This document shows positions 1 through 30,403 of a stretch of 36,534 bases of DNA, in pieces (the stretch's first letter is position 1; each line of letters begins with the position of its first letter). The DNA comes from Saprospiraceae bacterium. Lineage in GTDB: Bacteria > Bacteroidota > Bacteroidia > Chitinophagales > Saprospiraceae. The notes below the pieces were generated by a model, which did no database searches, was not told where the DNA came from, and saw only the letters and a program-made list of their open reading frames with translations. The position numbers and the translations under genes are program-made. The stretch spans positions 1 to 36,534 of the forward strand of contig JALZVN010000087.1 in assembly GCA_023299965.1 (NCBI GenBank). Direction: 5' to 3'.

Positions 1-3000
1 CAGTAATGCTTACTGATTCAATTTCAACGCAAGCGGCTAATGACTGCTATACTATCACTAGAACCTGGGTTATCGAAGACAACTGTGCGAATACTAATAC
101 ACATACTCAGGTAGTTACTATCCAAGATAATGATATCCCTACTTTTGATAATGCGCCAGTCGATGAAACGATCGAATGTACGGATGCTATCCCTACTTAC
201 ACTATCCTAGCTTCTGACAACTGTGATTCAGATGTTGCGGTAATGCTTACTGATTCGACATCTACTCAAAATTCAAGCGAATGTTTCGCTATAACACGTA
301 CATGGCTGGCTACTGATAATTGCGGAAATACAGTCACTCATACGCAAATAACAACTATAGTGGACAATATAGAACCGACCTTCGTTAATGCACCAGCTGA
401 TGAGACGATCGAATGTACGGATGCTATTCCTACTTATACAGTTTTAGCGTCTGATAACTGCGACACGGATGTTATGGTAATGCTTACTGATTCCGTTTCT
501 ACACAAGCGAATAACGATTGTTATTCTATTACTAGAACTTGGATAGCTTCTGACAATTGTGGAAATACACAAGTATTGATACAAAACTTGACTGTAATTG
601 ATACCATCAAGCCAGTATTCGTAAACGTACCTTCAGATGAAACAATTGATTGCTTAACTGCTATACCAACTTATACCTTTGATCTTTCAGATAATTGTGA
701 TGCAGACCCAACACTAACATTAGTTGATTCTGTATCTACGCAGACAAATAATGGAAGCACTACTGATTTCTGCTTTGATATTAACAGAACATGGACTCTT
801 ACAGACAACTGTGGTAATGAAGAATTTTATAGCCAAACTACTACAATACAGGATACATTAATACCGATGATATCTTGTGTAGATACTATTACACTATTAT
901 GTAATTTGTTAGATCTTCCTGCTTCTATTACTTTAGAAGACTTCATACAAAACGGTGGTTCTGTGAGTGATAACTGCTCTATCGACACATTCAGCTTCAC
1001 ACATATTGGAGATTTATCAGATGATAACGATTGCGCTGAGACAATTATCAGATCTTACATGATATCTGATCTTTGCGGAAATTCGAATATTTGTACTCAG
1101 ACAATAATTGTCGATGATAGAGAATTACCAGAATTTGTAAATACACCTGTAGATCAAACAATCGATTGTGAAGATAGTATCCCGGTATTTATTCTAGAAG
1201 CAATTGATAATTGTGATAATGATATTACTATTAGTAGAACTGATTCTACATCTACTCAGACGTTTAATGGTTCAATTACAGATGTATGCTTCGATATTTC
1301 TAGAACATGGATAGCGACTGATAACTGTGGCAATATTGATTCATTCACTCAAGTTGTAACCATAATAGATACTATTGAACCAATATTCACTAATGTACCT
1401 ATTGACGAAACTATAGAATGCACTACAATTGTACCTAGCTACGTATTAGAGGCTACGGATAATTGTGATAATGCACTAGAAATAGTACTTGTGGATTCTA
1501 CGTCTACTCAAGCGAACAATGACTGCTACATGATTACTAGAACATGGGTAGCCAGCGACAAATGCGGCAATACAGATATACATACACAGATACTTACAGT
1601 AATAGATACAATCGCACCAGTGTTTACAAATGCTCCAGTCGATGAGACGATTACTTGCGTAGATGCATTCCCAGTCTATATCCTTGAAGCTACAGACAAT
1701 TGTGATACAGATATTACAATTGTACTTATCGACTCAACTTCTACTCAGATGGATGATAGTAGCCTTGGTGACAACTGCTTCGCAATAACTAGAACTTGGA
1801 GCGCAGAAGATAATTGTGGAAATATAATTGTGCATACACAAACTACAACTATGTTTGATGAGACACCTCCAAGCATAGTATGTCCAGATACAATCAATCT
1901 TACTTGTATTGATTTGTTACCTGAAAGTTATACAACAATCATTGAATTCGAAAATGCGGGAGGTTCGATTACTGATCAATGTAATGTTGATATATCAAGC
2001 TTCATTCTTTTATCAGAAATTAGTGATGGAAATACATGTCCAGAGATAATAACTAGAACATATAGCATCGCTGATCAATGTGGAAATTCTGCAACTTGTG
2101 CTCAAGCTATTATTGTAAACGATACTATTGCTCCTTTGATTACTTGTCCAGACACAATTACAGCTAATTGTACTATAGACGAAATCGACATTTATACTTC
2201 AATTATTGAATTTGAGAATGCTGGAGGTACTATCTCAGATAATTGTGGCATAATCGAAAGTAGCTTCACCTATTTAGGAGACAGTTCTGATGGAAATACA
2301 TGTCCAGAAATAATTACAAGAACATACCAAGTATCAGATTCATGTGGAAACACAAGTATCTGTGAAAGCTACATAGTTGTGCGCCCAAATACACTAACAT
2401 GTAATCTTTTATTTGTTCAAAATGAAACATGTGATTATCTTGACAATGGTACTATAACTGTAGGTGCAACAGGTTGTTCAGGTCAATATACATTTGACAA
2501 TGGCATCACTACTAATACAGATGGAATATTCCTAGACTTAGCTTCTGGTACATACAATATAACCGTTACAGATGAGGCAGGATGTACGAGCATTTGTCCT
2601 GCAGTATTGATAACTGAACCTGAAACATTGACTTGCAGCTTAGACAATACAGTTCCAGAATCTTGTTCTACAGGAAATGATGGATCTATAAGTGTCTCCG
2701 CAGCTGGTGGAACAGCTCCATATTCATTCACACTTGGTAGTGTTACTAATACTACTGGAATCTTTACAGATCTTGATGCTGGAGAGTATATTATCACCAT
2801 TACAGATGCCAATGATTGTGAGTCAATCTGCGATACGATTTCTATCCTCAATGATTTCTCTTTTGAAGTTGTTACTGACTTAGTAGAATCATTCTGCAAC
2901 GGTGACTCCATAACAGTTGCCAATAGCACATACTTTGTTTCTGGTATTTACGCAGATACAATACAAAACTACATAGGATGTGATTCTATCATAAACTTGG

Positions 3001-6000
3001 ATTTAACAGTCTACCCTACTTATGATATCGACTCTACTGTAGTATTATGTGAAGGAGAATCTATAACTATTGGTACTAGTACATATAGCAGTACAGGTCA
3101 ATTTATTGACGAGCTTACGACAATCAATGGTTGTGATTCTATCATCAAATTGGATCTTACAGTGCATCCATTATTATTCGATACAATGCGTGTAACGCTA
3201 TGTGAAGAGGATAGCATTGAATTTAACAATACAACTTATTTCACAGCAGGTACTTATGACTTTATCACTACTTCTTCATTGAATTGTGATAGTACTATTA
3301 CGCTGGAATTAGATTATATCGCTACTAAGCGAACTGACGAAATTATCGAAATCTGTGAGGGGGATAGTGTATTTATTGCTGACCAATACTATTCCGTGCC
3401 GGGTAGTATCAGCGATACACTTTCTGCCTTTACAGGTTGCGATTCTATTCACATTACTAATTTGATTGTAAACCCAACTCACTCAGATACAATTACTACA
3501 TTTATCTGTGATGGAGATAGCATATTGATTGACAATCAGTATCAAACGACAGGAGGACATTACCCAGTACTGTATGCAAACCAATTTGGATGCGACAGTA
3601 TAGTTACAACGGCGCTATTCATTAACCCAACTTACAATGTACCATTGACAGATAGTATTTGTGATGGAGACAGCATCATGATTGGTAATGTATATGCAAG
3701 CATTGCAGGTATCTATCCAGACACATTACAAACGGTTGAAGGTTGCGATAGTATTTTGCTTGTAGATTTAACAATACTGCCAGTGTTCGATATTACACTA
3801 GTTGATACGATCTGTTCTAACGAAACTATTGCCTTTGGTAATGATATCTATAATGAGACTGGTATTTACCAGTTCGATACATTGACACAATTTGGATGTG
3901 ATAGTACGGTGTTCTTAGATCTTACTGTTTTATTAAGCCCAGAGACAGATCTATTTATTGACATCTGTGAAGACGAGTCGCACTTTGTTGCTGGTCAGTT
4001 ACAGTTCGAAACGGGAGACTATACAGAAGTATTTACAGCATCCAATGGTTGTGATAGTACTGTTATAACGCACTTGACAGTACACCCAATCCTTACTACG
4101 GATATACAAATAGATATCTGTCAAGGACAAAGTGTACAAGTGGGCGATGAACTTATCTTTGAAAGCGGAATTTATACAGATACATTAAGCACTGTATTTG
4201 GATGCGATAGTATCCTATACTTCGATATCAGTATCGTTGAATTTGTATTCGAAGAAGTTGATGTTACTATTTGTGATGGTTCTTCATACTTTGTTGGTGG
4301 AGACCTGCAAACGGAGGCCGGAGTATACTACGATACCTTATCTACTAATATGGGTTGTGATAGTATAGTTGTGACCTTCTTAGAATTGGATGATAAGATT
4401 GTTCAAGTCGTTAACGAGAACATATGTTTTGGTGATAGTATCTTTGTTGGAGGAGCATACCAGACAATACCTAGTATCTATGTTGATTCTCTAGTAGCAC
4501 AAGGAGGTTGCGATAGTATCGTATTCACAGCGTTGAATGTCTTACAGCCAAATATCACAAATACATCACAGACACTTTGCTCTGGAGATACCTTAACGGT
4601 AGGCAATAGCATATACACCGAGACAGGTAGCTTTATTGACACACTGATATCTATCAATGGATGTGATAGTATTGTAAACACAGAATTAATCATCAGAGAC
4701 GAAATTATCACTGATTTATCATTTGAGGTTTGCTTTGGAGATACAATATCAGTGGCTGGCGAGACTTACTCTACGTTCGGTATGTTTACAGATACATTGA
4801 TGGCGTATACAGGATGTGATAGTATATTGACTATTACCATTGTGAATTTATCTGATGCCGAGACCATCTTTACAGATACTATTTGCCAAGGAGAGACTGT
4901 CACCTTTGGAGGTATAGATTATACGGAGACAGGTGTGTATATAGACAACTTCGCGACCACTGGTGGATGTGATAGTATATCTACACTAAACCTTACAGTA
5001 ATACCTACAGATACAGCGTATACTGAATTGACTATCTGTCAAGGAACTACTATTGAGTACAATGATTTCACGATTACTAATCCAGGTGAGTATACCTTCT
5101 TATTAGCATCGACCAATGGATGTGATAGTGTTGAGATATTAACTGTAGAGACTATAGATATACTTAGAGACACCGTTGATCTTGTTATTTGTGAAGGAGA
5201 CACAGTGATCATCGACAATATAGAATATACAGAAGAAGGAGTAGTCTTAGAGACGCTCTCTAGTGTTAATACAAATTGTGATAGTCTTACATACCACTTT
5301 ATCACACTAGCACCGTCATACGCATTTGATAGTACAATTGTGATTTGCGAAGGAGACAGTGCATTGATAGAAGGAGTATACTTCAGCGAAGAGGGGATTT
5401 ACACAAACAGCTTCACAAGCGAATTTGGTTGTGATAGTATATTGACTACTGAATTGATTATTGAAGGAGTAGTAACATTCGTCTCTGCAGATACTACGAT
5501 TTGTCAAGGAGAACCTGTTCAATTATTTATCGAAGGCGCCAACTTTGTAACTTGGTCACCAAGTGAGACATTGAGCTGTTCTGACTGCTTCGATCCAATT
5601 GCTACACCAGATGAAACGACAACGTACACAGTGTTTGCAGAAACTTGTTTGGGTATGATAGAAGAGCATCAGATAACGGTAACTGTAAATACACTACCAG
5701 TCATAGAAACTGCAATTGTGGTAAATGCTAATATTGGAGAGACCGTAGTATTGACTGCAGATGTCAATGACTTTACATCTACCCTAGTATGGACAAATGA
5801 AGCAGGCGAAGTTCTCTGTACAAATTGCTTCTCTATAGAAGTAAATGTAACGGAGGAAATCACATTATTCTACGTAACCGCTACGTCAGCGCAAGGATGT
5901 GAAGTGACGGCATCTATTGACTTGATTGCGCAGAACCTGTGTGATGAAGGTCTAGTAGAAGTACCGAATTTCATTACTCCAAATAATGATGGAGCCAATG

Positions 6001-6227
6001 ACAAGCTTGAAATTAGATACACCAACATTGAAGAATTAGGACTCCTTAGAGTCTATAACAGATGGGGAGAATTGGTATTCGAAACAGATGATCCTACTTT
6101 CAACTTCTGGGATGGAACATTTAGAGGACAAGAGTTGAATCCAGGAGTATACGTTTACTATCTAGAAGTATATTGCCGTGATAATACATTATTCCTAAAG
6201 AAAGGGAATGTAACCATAATAAAATAA
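1..6227 (+). CDS. Giant Cys-rich repeat adhesin, T9SS type-B sorted (5' end outside window)
   Basis: Secreted surface protein; the reading frame is already open at the window edge and the first Met lies inside a repeat (VMLTDS recurs later), so the N-terminus is missing. Residue numbers count from the Met at base 6. Residues 1-790 hold HYR/Ig-like repeats of about 79 residues with a recurrent P.DETIEC...SDNCD pattern. Residues about 795-970 hold two SprB-type repeats (TCNLLF..., TCSLDN...). Residues about 970-1830 hold 17 short repeats, each with an IC.GDS-like start and a GCDSI-like end. After a linker, residues about 1983-2073 form the gliding-motility-associated C-terminal domain (FITPNNDGAND, VYNRWGELVFET, NPGVYVYY, KKGNVTIIK), the export signal of type IX secretion type-B cargo. 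The SprF-like gene downstream fits the SprB-SprF pairing. The adhesive or gliding role is inferred from the family; the ligand is unknown. Confidence 0.93.
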   Translation, partial: VMLTDSISTQAANDCYTITRTWVIEDNCANTNTHTQVVTIQDNDIPTFDNAPVDETIECTDAIPTYTILASDNCDSDVAVMLTDSTSTQNSSECFAITRTWLATDNCGNTVTHTQITTIVDNIEPTFVNAPADETIECTDAIPTYTVLASDNCDTDVMVMLTDSVSTQANNDCYSITRTWIASDNCGNTQVLIQNLTVIDTIKPVFVNVPSDETIDCLTAIPTYTFDLSDNCDADPTLTLVDSVSTQTNNGSTTDFCFDINRTWTLTDNCGNEEFYSQTTTIQDTLIPMISCVDTITLLCNLLDLPASITLEDFIQNGGSVSDNCSIDTFSFTHIGDLSDDNDCAETIIRSYMISDLCGNSNICTQTIIVDDRELPEFVNTPVDQTIDCEDSIPVFILEAIDNCDNDITISRTDSTSTQTFNGSITDVCFDISRTWIATDNCGNIDSFTQVVTIIDTIEPIFTNVPIDETIECTTIVPSYVLEATDNCDNALEIVLVDSTSTQANNDCYMITRTWVASDKCGNTDIHTQILTVIDTIAPVFTNAPVDETITCVDAFPVYILEATDNCDTDITIVLIDSTSTQMDDSSLGDNCFAITRTWSAEDNCGNIIVHTQTTTMFDETPPSIVCPDTINLTCIDLLPESYTTIIEFENAGGSITDQCNVDISSFILLSEISDGNTCPEIITRTYSIADQCGNSATCAQAIIVNDTIAPLITCPDTITANCTIDEIDIYTSIIEFENAGGTISDNCGIIESSFTYLGDSSDGNTCPEIITRTYQVSDSCGNTSICESYIVVRPNTLTCNLLFVQNETCDYLDNGTITVGATGCSGQYTFDNGITTNTDGIFLDLASGTYNITVTDEAGCTSICPAVLITEPETLTCSLDNTVPESCSTGNDGSISVSAAGGTAPYSFTLGSVTNTTGIFTDLDAGEYIITITDANDCESICDTISILNDFSFEVVTDLVESFCNGDSITVANSTYFVSGIYADTIQNYIGCDSIINLDLTVYPTYDIDSTVVLCEGESITIGTSTYSSTGQFIDELTTINGCDSIIKLDLTVHPLLFDTMRVTLCEEDSIEFNNTTYFTAGTYDFITTSSLNCDSTITLELDYIATKRTDEIIEICEGDSVFIADQYYSVPGSISDTLSAFTGCDSIHITNLIVNPTHSDTITTFICDGDSILIDNQYQTTGGHYPVLYANQFGCDSIVTTALFINPTYNVPLTDSICDGDSIMIGNVYASIAGIYPDTLQTVEGCDSILLVDLTILPVFDITLVDTICSNETIAFGNDIYNETGIYQFDTLTQFGCDSTVFLDLTVLLSPETDLFIDICEDESHFVAGQLQFETGDYTEVFTASNGCDSTVITHLTVHPILTTDIQIDICQGQSVQVGDELIFESGIYTDTLSTVFGCDSILYFDISIVEFVFEEVDVTICDGSSYFVGGDLQTEAGVYYDTLSTNMGCDSIVVTFLELDDKIVQVVNENICFGDSIFVGGAYQTIPSIYVDSLVAQGGCDSIVFTALNVLQPNITNTSQTLCSGDTLTVGNSIYTETGSFIDTLISINGCDSIVNTELIIRDEIITDLSFEVCFGDTISVAGETYSTFGMFTDTLMAYTGCDSILTITIVNLSDAETIFTDTICQGETVTFGGIDYTETGVYIDNFATTGGCDSISTLNLTVIPTDTAYTELTICQGTTIEYNDFTITNPGEYTFLLASTNGCDSVEILTVETIDILRDTVDLVICEGDTVIIDNIEYTEEGVVLETLSSVNTNCDSLTYHFITLAPSYAFDSTIVICEGDSALIEGVYFSEEGIYTNSFTSEFGCDSILTTELIIEGVVTFVSADTTICQGEPVQLFIEGANFVTWSPSETLSCSDCFDPIATPDETTTYTVFAETCLGMIEEHQITVTVNTLPVIETAIVVNANIGETVVLTADVNDFTSTLVWTNEAGEVLCTNCFSIEVNVTEEITLFYVTATSAQGCEVTASIDLIAQNLCDEGLVEVPNFITPNNDGANDKLEIRYTNIEELGLLRVYNRWGELVFETDDPTFNFWDGTFRGQELNPGVYVYYLEVYCRDNTLFLKKGNVTIIK

Positions 6228-6416: not shown

Positions 6417-6596
6417 TTTGGGGGCTCCCACTACCCTGCTAGGTCTATCGACCATGTAGCAGGCTGTGGTCAGGCTGTTCGTTCCTATCACTCTAGATAG
6501 AAAATTATCTAGAGCGATACCACTGCCATCCTTAGCCTCTTACGCACTCCGTTTGTCGTGCTTCACGCCTACGGTGCTTCGCGATATGAATTAGTA
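6417..6596 (+). repeat. Dispersed intergenic hairpin element, copy A
   Basis: About 180 bp, clearly richer in G+C than its flanks. It begins TTTGGGGGCTCCC and ends with a 3' module (6552-6596) containing TTTGTCG, GCTTCAC, CGGTGCTTCGCGATA. Inside it are a hairpin CCTGCTA/TAGCAGG (6436-6462) and a perfect hairpin CTCTAGATA/TATCTAGAG (6491-6514). The same 5' and 3' ends recur at 8707-8888 (opposite strand) and 24429-24632. No ORF is credible. It could be a MITE/REP-like mobile element or a structured RNA. Confidence 0.7.
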
Positions 6597-7247: not shown

Positions 7248-8288
7248 ATGAGAATTGTTTTTATTCTATTGGGGCTAATGAGTACCTTGAGTGTATTCAG
7301 TCAAGATGTGCACCTTTCGCACATACACGCTTCACCAACTTATTTAAATCCGGCTATGAACGGGATGATCCATGATGGAGTCGCTCGTGTTATAGTCAAC
7401 TCTAAAAGTCAGTGGAACACTGTTACTAATGGGTATAAGACAGCTATAGCTTCTGCGGACATGCAGATCTACGGTAATAAAGGAACCATTATAGGGGTAG
7501 GATTAAATCTAGCAGCAGATCAAGCCGGAGATTTAGATTTTACAACTGTGAAAACGGGATTGGCTTTATCTGTCATTCGAGCACTAGACTACAAGAGTGT
7601 AAACGTAATATCAGTCGGTGCTGAAGCCAACTATATAAACACAAGATTTGACATCAGTAAAATGATGGGCTTTGAAGAAGAGCCACTGGTTGCCTTAGGT
7701 TTATCTGATGTTTCTAACTATTTCACTTATAGTGCGGGAGTAAGTTGGTTCTATAATCCAGATAGAGATAAATCAGTTTACTTTGGCGCATCACTAGCAC
7801 ACTTCAATCAGCCTGATGTTACTTTTACCAAAGGACTAGATCAACAAGGATTAATAGTTACAGATTTTGGAGCTACTAACTTATTCACTAAAATCGTAAT
7901 TCATGCCGGTGGGTCTTTCAAGATGGGTAAAAATTTCAAACTATTACCCAGTGGTATATTCACTGATCAAGGTCCTCATCAAGAGATCTTAATTGGTAGT
8001 TTTCTCAGATATGCAAATAGAGCTGCTGGACCAGATGCTACTCCATTTTATTTGGGTGCATGGATAAGAGGATATCTAGAGGGGGATATAAAAGGCTCTG
8101 ACGCATTTGTTTTTTCAGTCAGAGCAGATATCAAAAAGACAAAATTTGCTTTATCGTATGATTTCAATGTATCTACATGGAGGAGAGCAAGTAGAGGAGC
8201 TGGAGGAGCAGAATTATCTATCATCCACGTACTTGATTTAGATAAACATAGTAGGAAATTGGAAGACGTATATTGTCCTGGTCTTTAA
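7248..8288 (+). CDS. Type IX secretion system membrane protein, PorP/SprF family
   Basis: 346 residues. A signal peptide (MRIVFILLGLMSTLSVFSQ) is followed by the family's N-terminal pattern (DVHLSHIHASPTYLNPAMNG) and then alternating amphipathic strands typical of an outer-membrane beta-barrel, ending near the family's usual CPxx tail (CPGL). Proteins of this family anchor or help display T9SS type-B cargo at the outer membrane and are usually encoded just after a giant CHU_C/SprB-like protein, as here. The two genes are separated by about 1 kb with a terminator and a repeat element, so they are probably transcribed separately. The family call is firm; the specific partnership with the upstream adhesin is inferred from adjacency. 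Confidence 0.9.
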   Translation: MRIVFILLGLMSTLSVFSQDVHLSHIHASPTYLNPAMNGMIHDGVARVIVNSKSQWNTVTNGYKTAIASADMQIYGNKGTIIGVGLNLAADQAGDLDFTTVKTGLALSVIRALDYKSVNVISVGAEANYINTRFDISKMMGFEEEPLVALGLSDVSNYFTYSAGVSWFYNPDRDKSVYFGASLAHFNQPDVTFTKGLDQQGLIVTDFGATNLFTKIVIHAGGSFKMGKNFKLLPSGIFTDQGPHQEILIGSFLRYANRAAGPDATPFYLGAWIRGYLEGDIKGSDAFVFSVRADIKKTKFALSYDFNVSTWRRASRGAGGAELSIIHVLDLDKHSRKLEDVYCPGL

Positions 8289-8706: not shown

Positions 8707-8888
8707 TATCGCGAAGCACCTGAGGTGTGGAGCTCGACAAGGCGGAGCCGCGTAGAGGCAAAGGATCGAAGTGGTATCTCGACATTTTCGTCGAGGTAAG
8801 AACGGAGAGCCTGGTCTCGCCTTCTGTCCCGATCTGCGGAAGGATGGCAGCAAGGCCTGCATCGGGATAAGGTCGAGATGACCCCAAA
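8707..8888 (-). repeat. Dispersed intergenic hairpin element, copy B
   Basis: About 182 bp and markedly GC-richer than its surroundings. Read on the minus strand it begins TTTGGGGTCATCTCGACC (8888 leftward) and ends CTTGTCGAGCT, CCACACC, then GGTGCTTCGCGATA (8707), the same ends as copies A and C. Internal inverted repeats include CTCGAC/GTCGAG around 8778-8796 and TCCCGAT/ATCGGGA spanning about 8827-8867. The rest of 8403-9058 shows no gene; ORF fragments across it are artefacts of the GC-rich element. Confidence 0.7.
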
Positions 8889-24428: not shown

Positions 24429-24632
24429 TTTGGGGTCTCCTCCAGTCCCTTGAAAAGCGGGACGGAGTCGGGTGTTTCGCTCGTACCCGGCTATGATCAC
24501 CGTCAAAAAAAACGGCCATCATAGCCGGGACCCACTACACCCCCTAGCCCCTAACGCGCCTTGCCCCGACTTACGTTACACTACAGTCGAGACAGGCTTT
24601 GTCGAGCTTCACACCTTCGGTGCTACGCGAAA
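24429..24632 (+). repeat. Dispersed intergenic hairpin element, copy C
   Basis: About 204 bp, GC-rich against an AT-rich background. It starts TTTGGGGTCTCC and ends CTTTGTCGAGCTTCACACC, then TTCGGTGCTACGCGAAA, the ends shared with copies A and B. Its interior has CTCC-GTCCC/GGGAC-GGAG (about 24439-24467) and a long perfect hairpin CCCGGCTATGAT (24486-24497) with ATCATAGCCGGG (24518-24529), containing a further CCGT/ACGG. The flanks 24252-24428 and 24633-24781 show no gene. Confidence 0.7.
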
Positions 24633-25825: not shown

Positions 25826-25970
25826 TAGGCATTGCAGCACTAGCCGCGTGAATGATGGGAATGATATCGCCGCATAGCGATAGTCCGTGCCTCTCCGCTA
25901 GGAAGAGCGCAAAGGACCGTAGCCGATAGGCGAAGTCATGGACAGTATGGCCTGTATGGGCACGCCCAAA
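25826..25970 (-). repeat. GGGCGTGCCC-type dispersed element (copy D)
   Basis: About 145 GC-rich bases. On the minus strand it starts TTTTGGGCGTGCCC (GGGCACGCCC at 25958-25967 on plus), passes through CTATCGGCTACGGTCC and a hairpin TATCGC/GCGATA (25865-25882), and ends near GCTGCAATGCCTAA. From memory, elements with this opening and a GGGCTWTCCGC-like middle are scattered through many Bacteroidota genomes; that comparison is recollection, not a search. It does not share the 3' module of copies A-C. Confidence 0.5.
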
Positions 25971-28212: not shown

Positions 28213-28293
28213 CAATATATGTAATATTGAAATACACACATTACTATGTAGGCCCCCTAGAATAGTATTTTGTAAGCCAAAGCGCTTACGTCA

Positions 28294-28337
28294 CAAAGAG
28301 GGTCCATTCTTATTAAAGAATGGACCCTCTTTGTTTT
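28294..28337 (+). terminator. Strong terminator of the parA operon
   Basis: Perfect 18-bp stem CAAAGAGGGTCCATTCTT (28294-28311) with AAGAATGGACCCTCTTTG (28316-28333), 4-base loop, then TTTT. It cuts the repeat region off from parA transcription. Confidence 0.93.
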
Positions 28338-29793: not shown

Positions 29794-30102
29794 TAAAACA
29801 AATTTCTAGCCCGCTACAGCTCTTAAAACGACCTCTAAGTTAAAGTAGCCGCTATTAAATTACCGCACATAACAGTCTATTAAATAAACAAGGATAGTAA
29901 TATTTGCATTCTCTGTTATACGTGTGTGATTATATTACAGATATTGCCGCTAGATTACTCCGCATATCTAAAATACTTAAGTTCTTGACCAGAGCTTATC
30001 AATCTGGTTTCAAAATTATACGCAATGGGAAGTCCAGAATACAGTAATACCACAAATCTTCTATTACTAATATTACAATTACAGCAATAAAACAATAGAA
30101 GA

Positions 30103-30403
30103 GGGATTAAAGTAATCCTTTAAGCTCTCTACAATTTTTGAAGATCGTTTTATCACTAAATGTAAAATCTAGTGTGTATAAATATTGAATTACAGTCAAT
30201 ACTAATATTACAATATAATATATGTATGCTAAATTTATTAATAATGAAATTTAGGGATTAAAGTAATCCTTTAAGCACTCTACAATTTTTGAAGATCGTT
30301 TTATCACTAATGTAAAATCTAGTGTGTATAAATATTCAATTACAGTTAATACAAATATTACTATACAATATATATATGCTAGTATTACGATTAATGAAAT
30401 TTA
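30103..30403. repeat. 151-bp tandem duplication
   Basis: Copy 1 is 30103-30253 and copy 2 is 30254-30403, both starting GGGATTAAAGTAATCC and ending AATGAAATTTA, with few differences in the first 90 bases and more in the second half. Each carries one ATATTAC site (30205, 30355) and an ATTACAG site. The first part GGATTA-AAG-TAATCC is itself a hairpin. Confidence 0.9.

Follow-up and report, generated by a model that had tools for sequence, protein, structure and literature searches.

The window, a stretch of 36,534 nucleotides, contains three copies of a structured intergenic repeat that, by sequence and covariance comparison, are members of the Flavo-1 superfamily (Rfam RF01705), extended by a 5' domain of two hairpins (P4 and P3). 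The family itself is already known, and the genus of the window is an expanded and structurally extended branch of it. Covariation and homology establish the fold and the family; as to function, we infer, at a probability of about one half, an old DNA-level, REP-like structured repeat in preference to a conventional small RNA. The genome of the window (G000, 2.88 Mb, 62.6% complete) was compared with five genomes of the same genus of uncultured Saprospiraceae (G001 to G005) and with more distant relatives.

The sequence-only reading had described copies A, B and C as a hairpin-rich family, and all three were confirmed in place with their borders set to the base as listed below. Copies were scored with a covariance model (R1) built from eight copies, in some of which P1 or P2 was shortened; they were aligned on the strand with the G·A pairs. 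This strand was taken as the structured one because the opposite strand would have C/T mismatches; it is the plus strand for copy B and the minus strand for copies A and C, which corrects the orientation given earlier. For two of the three full elements the E-values are not independent of R1, since these copies are close to or among its eight seeds.

6417..6584, structured strand minus: copy A, full element (R1 91.2 bits, E = 1.8e-25)
6464-6542, minus strand: Flavo-1 core match of copy A (RF01705 38.2 bits, E = 7.2e-6)
8709..8888, structured strand plus: copy B, full element (R1 102.7 bits, E = 8.3e-29)
8711..8733, plus strand: copy B hairpin P4 of the 5' domain (R1 alignment; pairs covary; mostly a C-GNA-G triloop in the family)
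8741..8749, plus strand: copy B hairpin P3, GGC-GGA-GCC (covarying helix 3)
8763..8774, plus strand: copy B core helix, 5' strand GGATCGAAGTGG (covarying pairs, tandem G·A pairs)
8775..8798, plus strand: copy B hairpin P2 with a variable tip (alignment, covariation and tip comparison)
8801..8811, plus strand: copy B core helix, 3' strand AACGGAGAGCC (covarying pairs, tandem G·A pairs)
8815..8878, plus strand: copy B hairpin P1 with a conserved base and a variable tip (R1 and R2 alignments; covarying helix 7)
8880..8888, plus strand: copy B 3' terminus GACCCCAAA, the TTTGGGG start of the earlier description on the other strand; paralogue similarity ends about here
24429..24630, structured strand minus: copy C, full element (R1 67.5 bits, E = 1.5e-18)
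25843..25970, plus strand: probable divergent fourth relative, GCGTGAATGATGGGAATGA...TCATGGACAG...GGGCACGCCCAAA (tentative, read in the sequence)

The common TTTGGGG start and the GCTTCAC-N-CC-NN-CGGTGCTNCGCGA end noticed earlier were recovered, with two mismatches in copy B, and the copies are GC-rich (53-58% GC) within AT-rich intergenic surroundings. The interior, previously described as variable, is so only in part: the hairpin tips vary but a conserved core (GGATNGNAGYGG...NARCGGANAGCC and variants) also lies inside. The core of copy C is a rare variant (GGGGGTGNAGTGG...ACACCCGACTCC), and P3 has grown to a hairpin of 35-45 nt in copy C and others. The putative fourth relative is GC-rich and structured (GCGTGAATGATGGGAATGA...GAAGTCATGGACAG...GGGCACGCCCAAA) and is similar to a Flavo-1 variant whose core is enlarged; it was missed by both R1 and R2 (R2 score only 6.9 bits), and five elements like it were found in fetched DNA of the congeners (L100, L126, L130, L138 and L168).

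Other features of the window were recorded alongside the copies. An ORF of 2073 amino acids with many internal repeats (6-6227) is followed by an ORF that by eye is like a PorP/SprF-type membrane protein (7248-8288) and is bracketed by copies A and B. Further downstream, a perfect 19-bp palindrome with a 4-base loop (ACAAAGAGGGTCCATTCTT, 28293-28334) lies just 3' of an ORF and is probably an intrinsic terminator, and two tandem units of about 150 bp, with repeat parts 87-98% identical, occupy an AT-rich, gene-poor stretch (30102-30403).

Covariance modelling, proposed as a check on the family, gave one architecture for all copies in which only the hairpin tips vary. A single strand forms a junction fold composed of the core helix with tandem G·A pairs and P2, and the hairpin P1; the 5' domain adds P4 and P3. 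Among 97 copies (the R1 yield from 1.13 Mb of fetched DNA), compensatory changes on both sides were found at 32 out of 32 tested base pairs, and the alignment contained 726 double-changed cells compared with 175±15 in shuffles. Overall, 96.4% of the cells pair, a percentage inflated by fitting the alignment to R1 although not plausibly to this level, and the value falls to 27-44% once the partner is slid by one to three columns. The purine pairs of the core helix are nearly invariant (G·A in 97/97, A·G in 93/97 and G·A in 94/97 copies), and at one purine position 61 of the 97 copies have GA and 33 have AG. The P4 loop is C[GNA]G in 49 of 71 triloops; such triloops are exceptionally stable in DNA, yet they are found in RNA too.

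The hairpin tips are replaced as whole modules in both orthologous and paralogous pairs while the core and the hairpin bases are retained, which explains the earlier impression of constant ends around a variable structured middle. Two copies in G005 (L140 and L147) that are about 93% alike elsewhere differ by a clean 35-nt hairpin insertion at P3 in one of them. The palindrome GACGCA-n-TGCG, often shared by tips, has a density of 1.76 per kb within copies, about 400 times the 0.004 per kb outside them. This count, like the triloop tally above and the analyses of paralogue identity, nearest relatives, gap types, strand, flanking motifs and borders below, was made on copies picked by high R1 score and describes the better-conserved members.

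A genome search with the 24-base 3' module returned eight sites in G000 at up to three mismatches (none for the reversed control), so the module is not confined to the three window copies; among 101 related genomes it was found only in the genome of the window and two congeners. The R1 profile search, which scored 150 candidates per genome, reached much further, with at least 70 copies in G000, at least 108 in G003, at least 128 in G004 and at least 117 in G005, and with E-values down to about 1e-38 in genomes that gave the model no seed or one seed. R1 matched one copy in G002 and none in G001, indicating expansion or loss within the genus. Each copy is a discrete intergenic unit of 130-260 bp, and R1 matches extend to other Saprospiraceae genera. 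Close inverted pairs of copies, BIME-like in arrangement, were seen at L166 2983-3433 (about 130 bp apart), L110 15178-15590 (about 25 bp) and L105 679-2296 (about 1350 bp). Matches to the 5' module in Silanimonas, Calidithermus and Fulvimonas, from a scan of named genomes, were taken for chance, and two scans of viral contigs with narrow patterns, a weak test, returned no Flavo-1-like cores.

The identity of the family surfaced only through more distant relatives. An Rfam scan of the window at the gathering threshold and a first relaxed scan of congener loci gave no match; copy A scores below the curated RF01705 cut-off of 42 bits, and for copies B and C the RF01705 listings, reaching E = 1 and E = 5 respectively, contained no match. 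Three G004 copies pass the cut-off (C61 with 61.0, C47 with 44.4 and C241 with 43.9 bits), the first of which is also an R1 match (L170:5009-5171, 59.4 bits). In the other direction, a model of the core, P1 and the 3' end (R2), built only from copies of the window genus and other Saprospiraceae, was run against 396 genomes of the phylum and matched 36, most of them from a single family. Its matches extend to other families of the class and include Flavobacteriaceae loci, and 15 out of 19 R2 loci examined reach the RF01705 cut-off. RF01705 thus finds the window family and R2 finds Flavo-1 loci, which demonstrates homology in both directions.

The Flavo-1 RNA motif was predicted by comparative analysis (Weinberg et al. 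2010, PMC2864571), has been listed as one of the most abundant families of predicted small RNAs and has no known function (PMC9029176), and in the Flavobacterium psychrophilum transcriptome has matches sense, antisense and outside of transcribed regions (PMC9723704). The window family has the same core helix, P2 and G·A pattern, and Flavobacteriaceae Flavo-1 copies likewise continue into a P1 hairpin and a GCCCAAA-like 3' end; both are multicopy and indifferent in strand to transcripts (PMC9723704). Unlike Flavo-1, the window family carries the added 5' domain, most copies of the genus fall under the Rfam cut-off, four members of the genus hold from at least 70 to at least 128 copies per genome, tip modules are swapped between copies, and the hosts are Saprospiraceae and not Flavobacteriaceae. 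The earlier suggestion of a family of structured RNAs therefore stands as far as homology to an Rfam family goes, but a DNA repeat is favoured over a conventional small RNA.

Copies have multiplied within lineages, and many have been retained at the same site and in the same orientation across diverged species. Of 92 copies, 45 have their nearest relative within their own genome, against 21 on average and 38 at most with shuffled labels. The flanks of similar paralogues are unrelated and the borders are sharp, the likeness stopping near TCGCG and CCCCAAA(TAA), and the closest full-length paralogues found are about 85-89% alike. Residence was assessed with the window's own flanks, an unbiased search in which target regions were not chosen for copies. 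Site and strand are unchanged for copy A in G004 (L212:4016-4177) and G005 (L213:314-469), for copy B in all of G003 to G005, and for copy C, whose core variant is also the same, in G003 (L211:17922-18098) and G004 (L161:9801-9935); wherever a contig of G003 to G005 covers a window-copy site, the copy is present on the same strand (7/7). The right-hand gene beside copy C is inverted in G003, so that the site is recognised there by its left neighbour. Genes next to shared sites have about 66-78% identity, and alignment is lost over most of the intergenic DNA that surrounds the copies. The fetched stretch of G002, the genome with a single copy, around the A and B sites contains no copy. One syntenic site is filled in G000 and G003 with no copy detected in G004, in comparisons beyond the window copies that are biased toward shared copies since the regions were fetched around copies.

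Copies are placed without regard to gene direction. The gap types (tandem, convergent and divergent) of 83 between-gene copies are much as for gaps generally, and in tandem gaps 26 copies lie on the gene strand and 28 on the opposite one. The Bacteroidota promoter motif TAnnTTTG is not enriched upstream of copies (6 observed, 4.5 expected), and terminator-like T-runs follow only 5 of 92. Judged by GC skew there is no replication-strand bias (45 out of 92 copies on the G-rich strand), and in the complete genome G106 the strand of copies is mixed along its length. Strand balance, ordinary gap types, lack of promoter enrichment and scarce T-runs argue against a transcript-level role, and together with the lack of target duplications and of Y1 transposase association described below and the long residence at sites they favour a DNA-level, REP-like repeat.

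Such a unit would act at the DNA level in the manner of REP/BIME elements. One strand, extruded as a cruciform or single-stranded during replication, would fold into the conserved core and be bound by a host protein, with P1, P2 and P3 serving as tolerant spacers or handles. New copies and tips could come from folded single strands that switch templates or undergo gene conversion with one another; alternatively, their source might be a lost or undetected single-strand DNA transposase, but not a cut-and-paste transposon. Like the GTAG- and CGTC-tagged palindromes of REP/BIME systems (PMC3733652), the window family is GC-rich, palindromic, intergenic, multicopy and sometimes arranged in close inverted pairs; unlike them, its copies are 130-260 bp long, share a multi-helix conserved core and show no conserved tag or RAYT association. 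Against the DNA-level reading stand the absence of a replication-strand bias, which a one-strand role in replication might predict, and the absence of any identified copying enzyme after Y1_Tnp correlation and adjacency were checked.

It is possible, though on balance unlikely, that Flavo-1 is a genuine structured RNA, either trans-acting or a UTR module, in which case the genus would carry an extreme gene expansion. The comparative prediction and the Rfam listing as a small RNA (PMC2864571) agree with this, as do the extreme covariation of a complex fold and a G·A-rich core typical of RNA junctions; GNA triloops and G·A pairs are also known in RNA, and the conservation of position over large divergence suits a functional RNA equally well. 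However, the copies show no strand preference with respect to their neighbours, no enrichment of promoter motifs and nearly no T-runs, the F. psychrophilum matches are sense, antisense or outside transcripts (PMC9723704), and an RNA gene would not usually have about 100 highly divergent copies per genome.

An active non-autonomous transposon, MITE- or REP-like and moved in trans by an enzyme that was not identified, is improbable. The intuition of a dispersed element was sound with respect to lineage-specific copying and sharp borders, and unrelated flanks, close inverted pairs and the syntenic site filled in two congeneric genomes without a detected copy in the third also point this way; the labels MITE and RAYT did not hold. 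Non-coding sequence, discrete borders and subterminal hairpins are shared with MITEs and IS200-IS605 derivatives, but a target-site duplication of at least six bases was seen in only 1 of 92 copies, no cognate transposase was detected by correlation with or adjacency to Y1_Tnp genes, the closest full-length paralogues found are no more than about 85-89% alike, and copies stay at orthologous sites for long periods.

Specific mobilization of a REP element by a RAYT (TnpA_REP) transposase is very improbable. The copies are palindromic, GC-rich, intergenic and multicopy, and a GTAG tetranucleotide adjoins P4 in some of them, but neither GTAG nor CGTC is a conserved tag (the 5' triplets flanking P4 are GAC, GTA, GGA, GAA and others) and the element is far larger than a REP of 20-40 bp. 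The transposase search suggested earlier showed no link between Y1_Tnp matches and copy number (none in G005 with at least 117 copies, five in G002 with one copy) and no enrichment of copies at Y1 loci, a single confident copy (L029) lying within 1.5 kb of a Y1 gene, about as copy density predicts. By the tests of copy-number correlation and of adjacency this explanation is largely refuted. Chance resemblance or a decayed coding sequence, for which nothing was found in favour, is refuted by the E-values, the covariation and the intergenic position, only 1 of 92 copies overlapping an ORF, and that partly.

The DNA-level reading may reach beyond this genus. We tentatively suggest, with the odds a little against it, that Flavo-1 has been mis-filed as a small RNA and is a DNA-acting repeat in which a single-strand fold is selected, residing at fixed intergenic sites and exchanging modules among about 100 copies. 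With the curated Rfam cut-off, nearly all copies go unnoticed in a genus that has about 100 of them per genome, and the hundreds of diverged copies in this genus define the fold far beyond the current 76-position Flavo-1 model. With an element that is strand-indifferent, positionally stable and modular, the question of whether Flavo-1 acts as RNA or DNA becomes testable.
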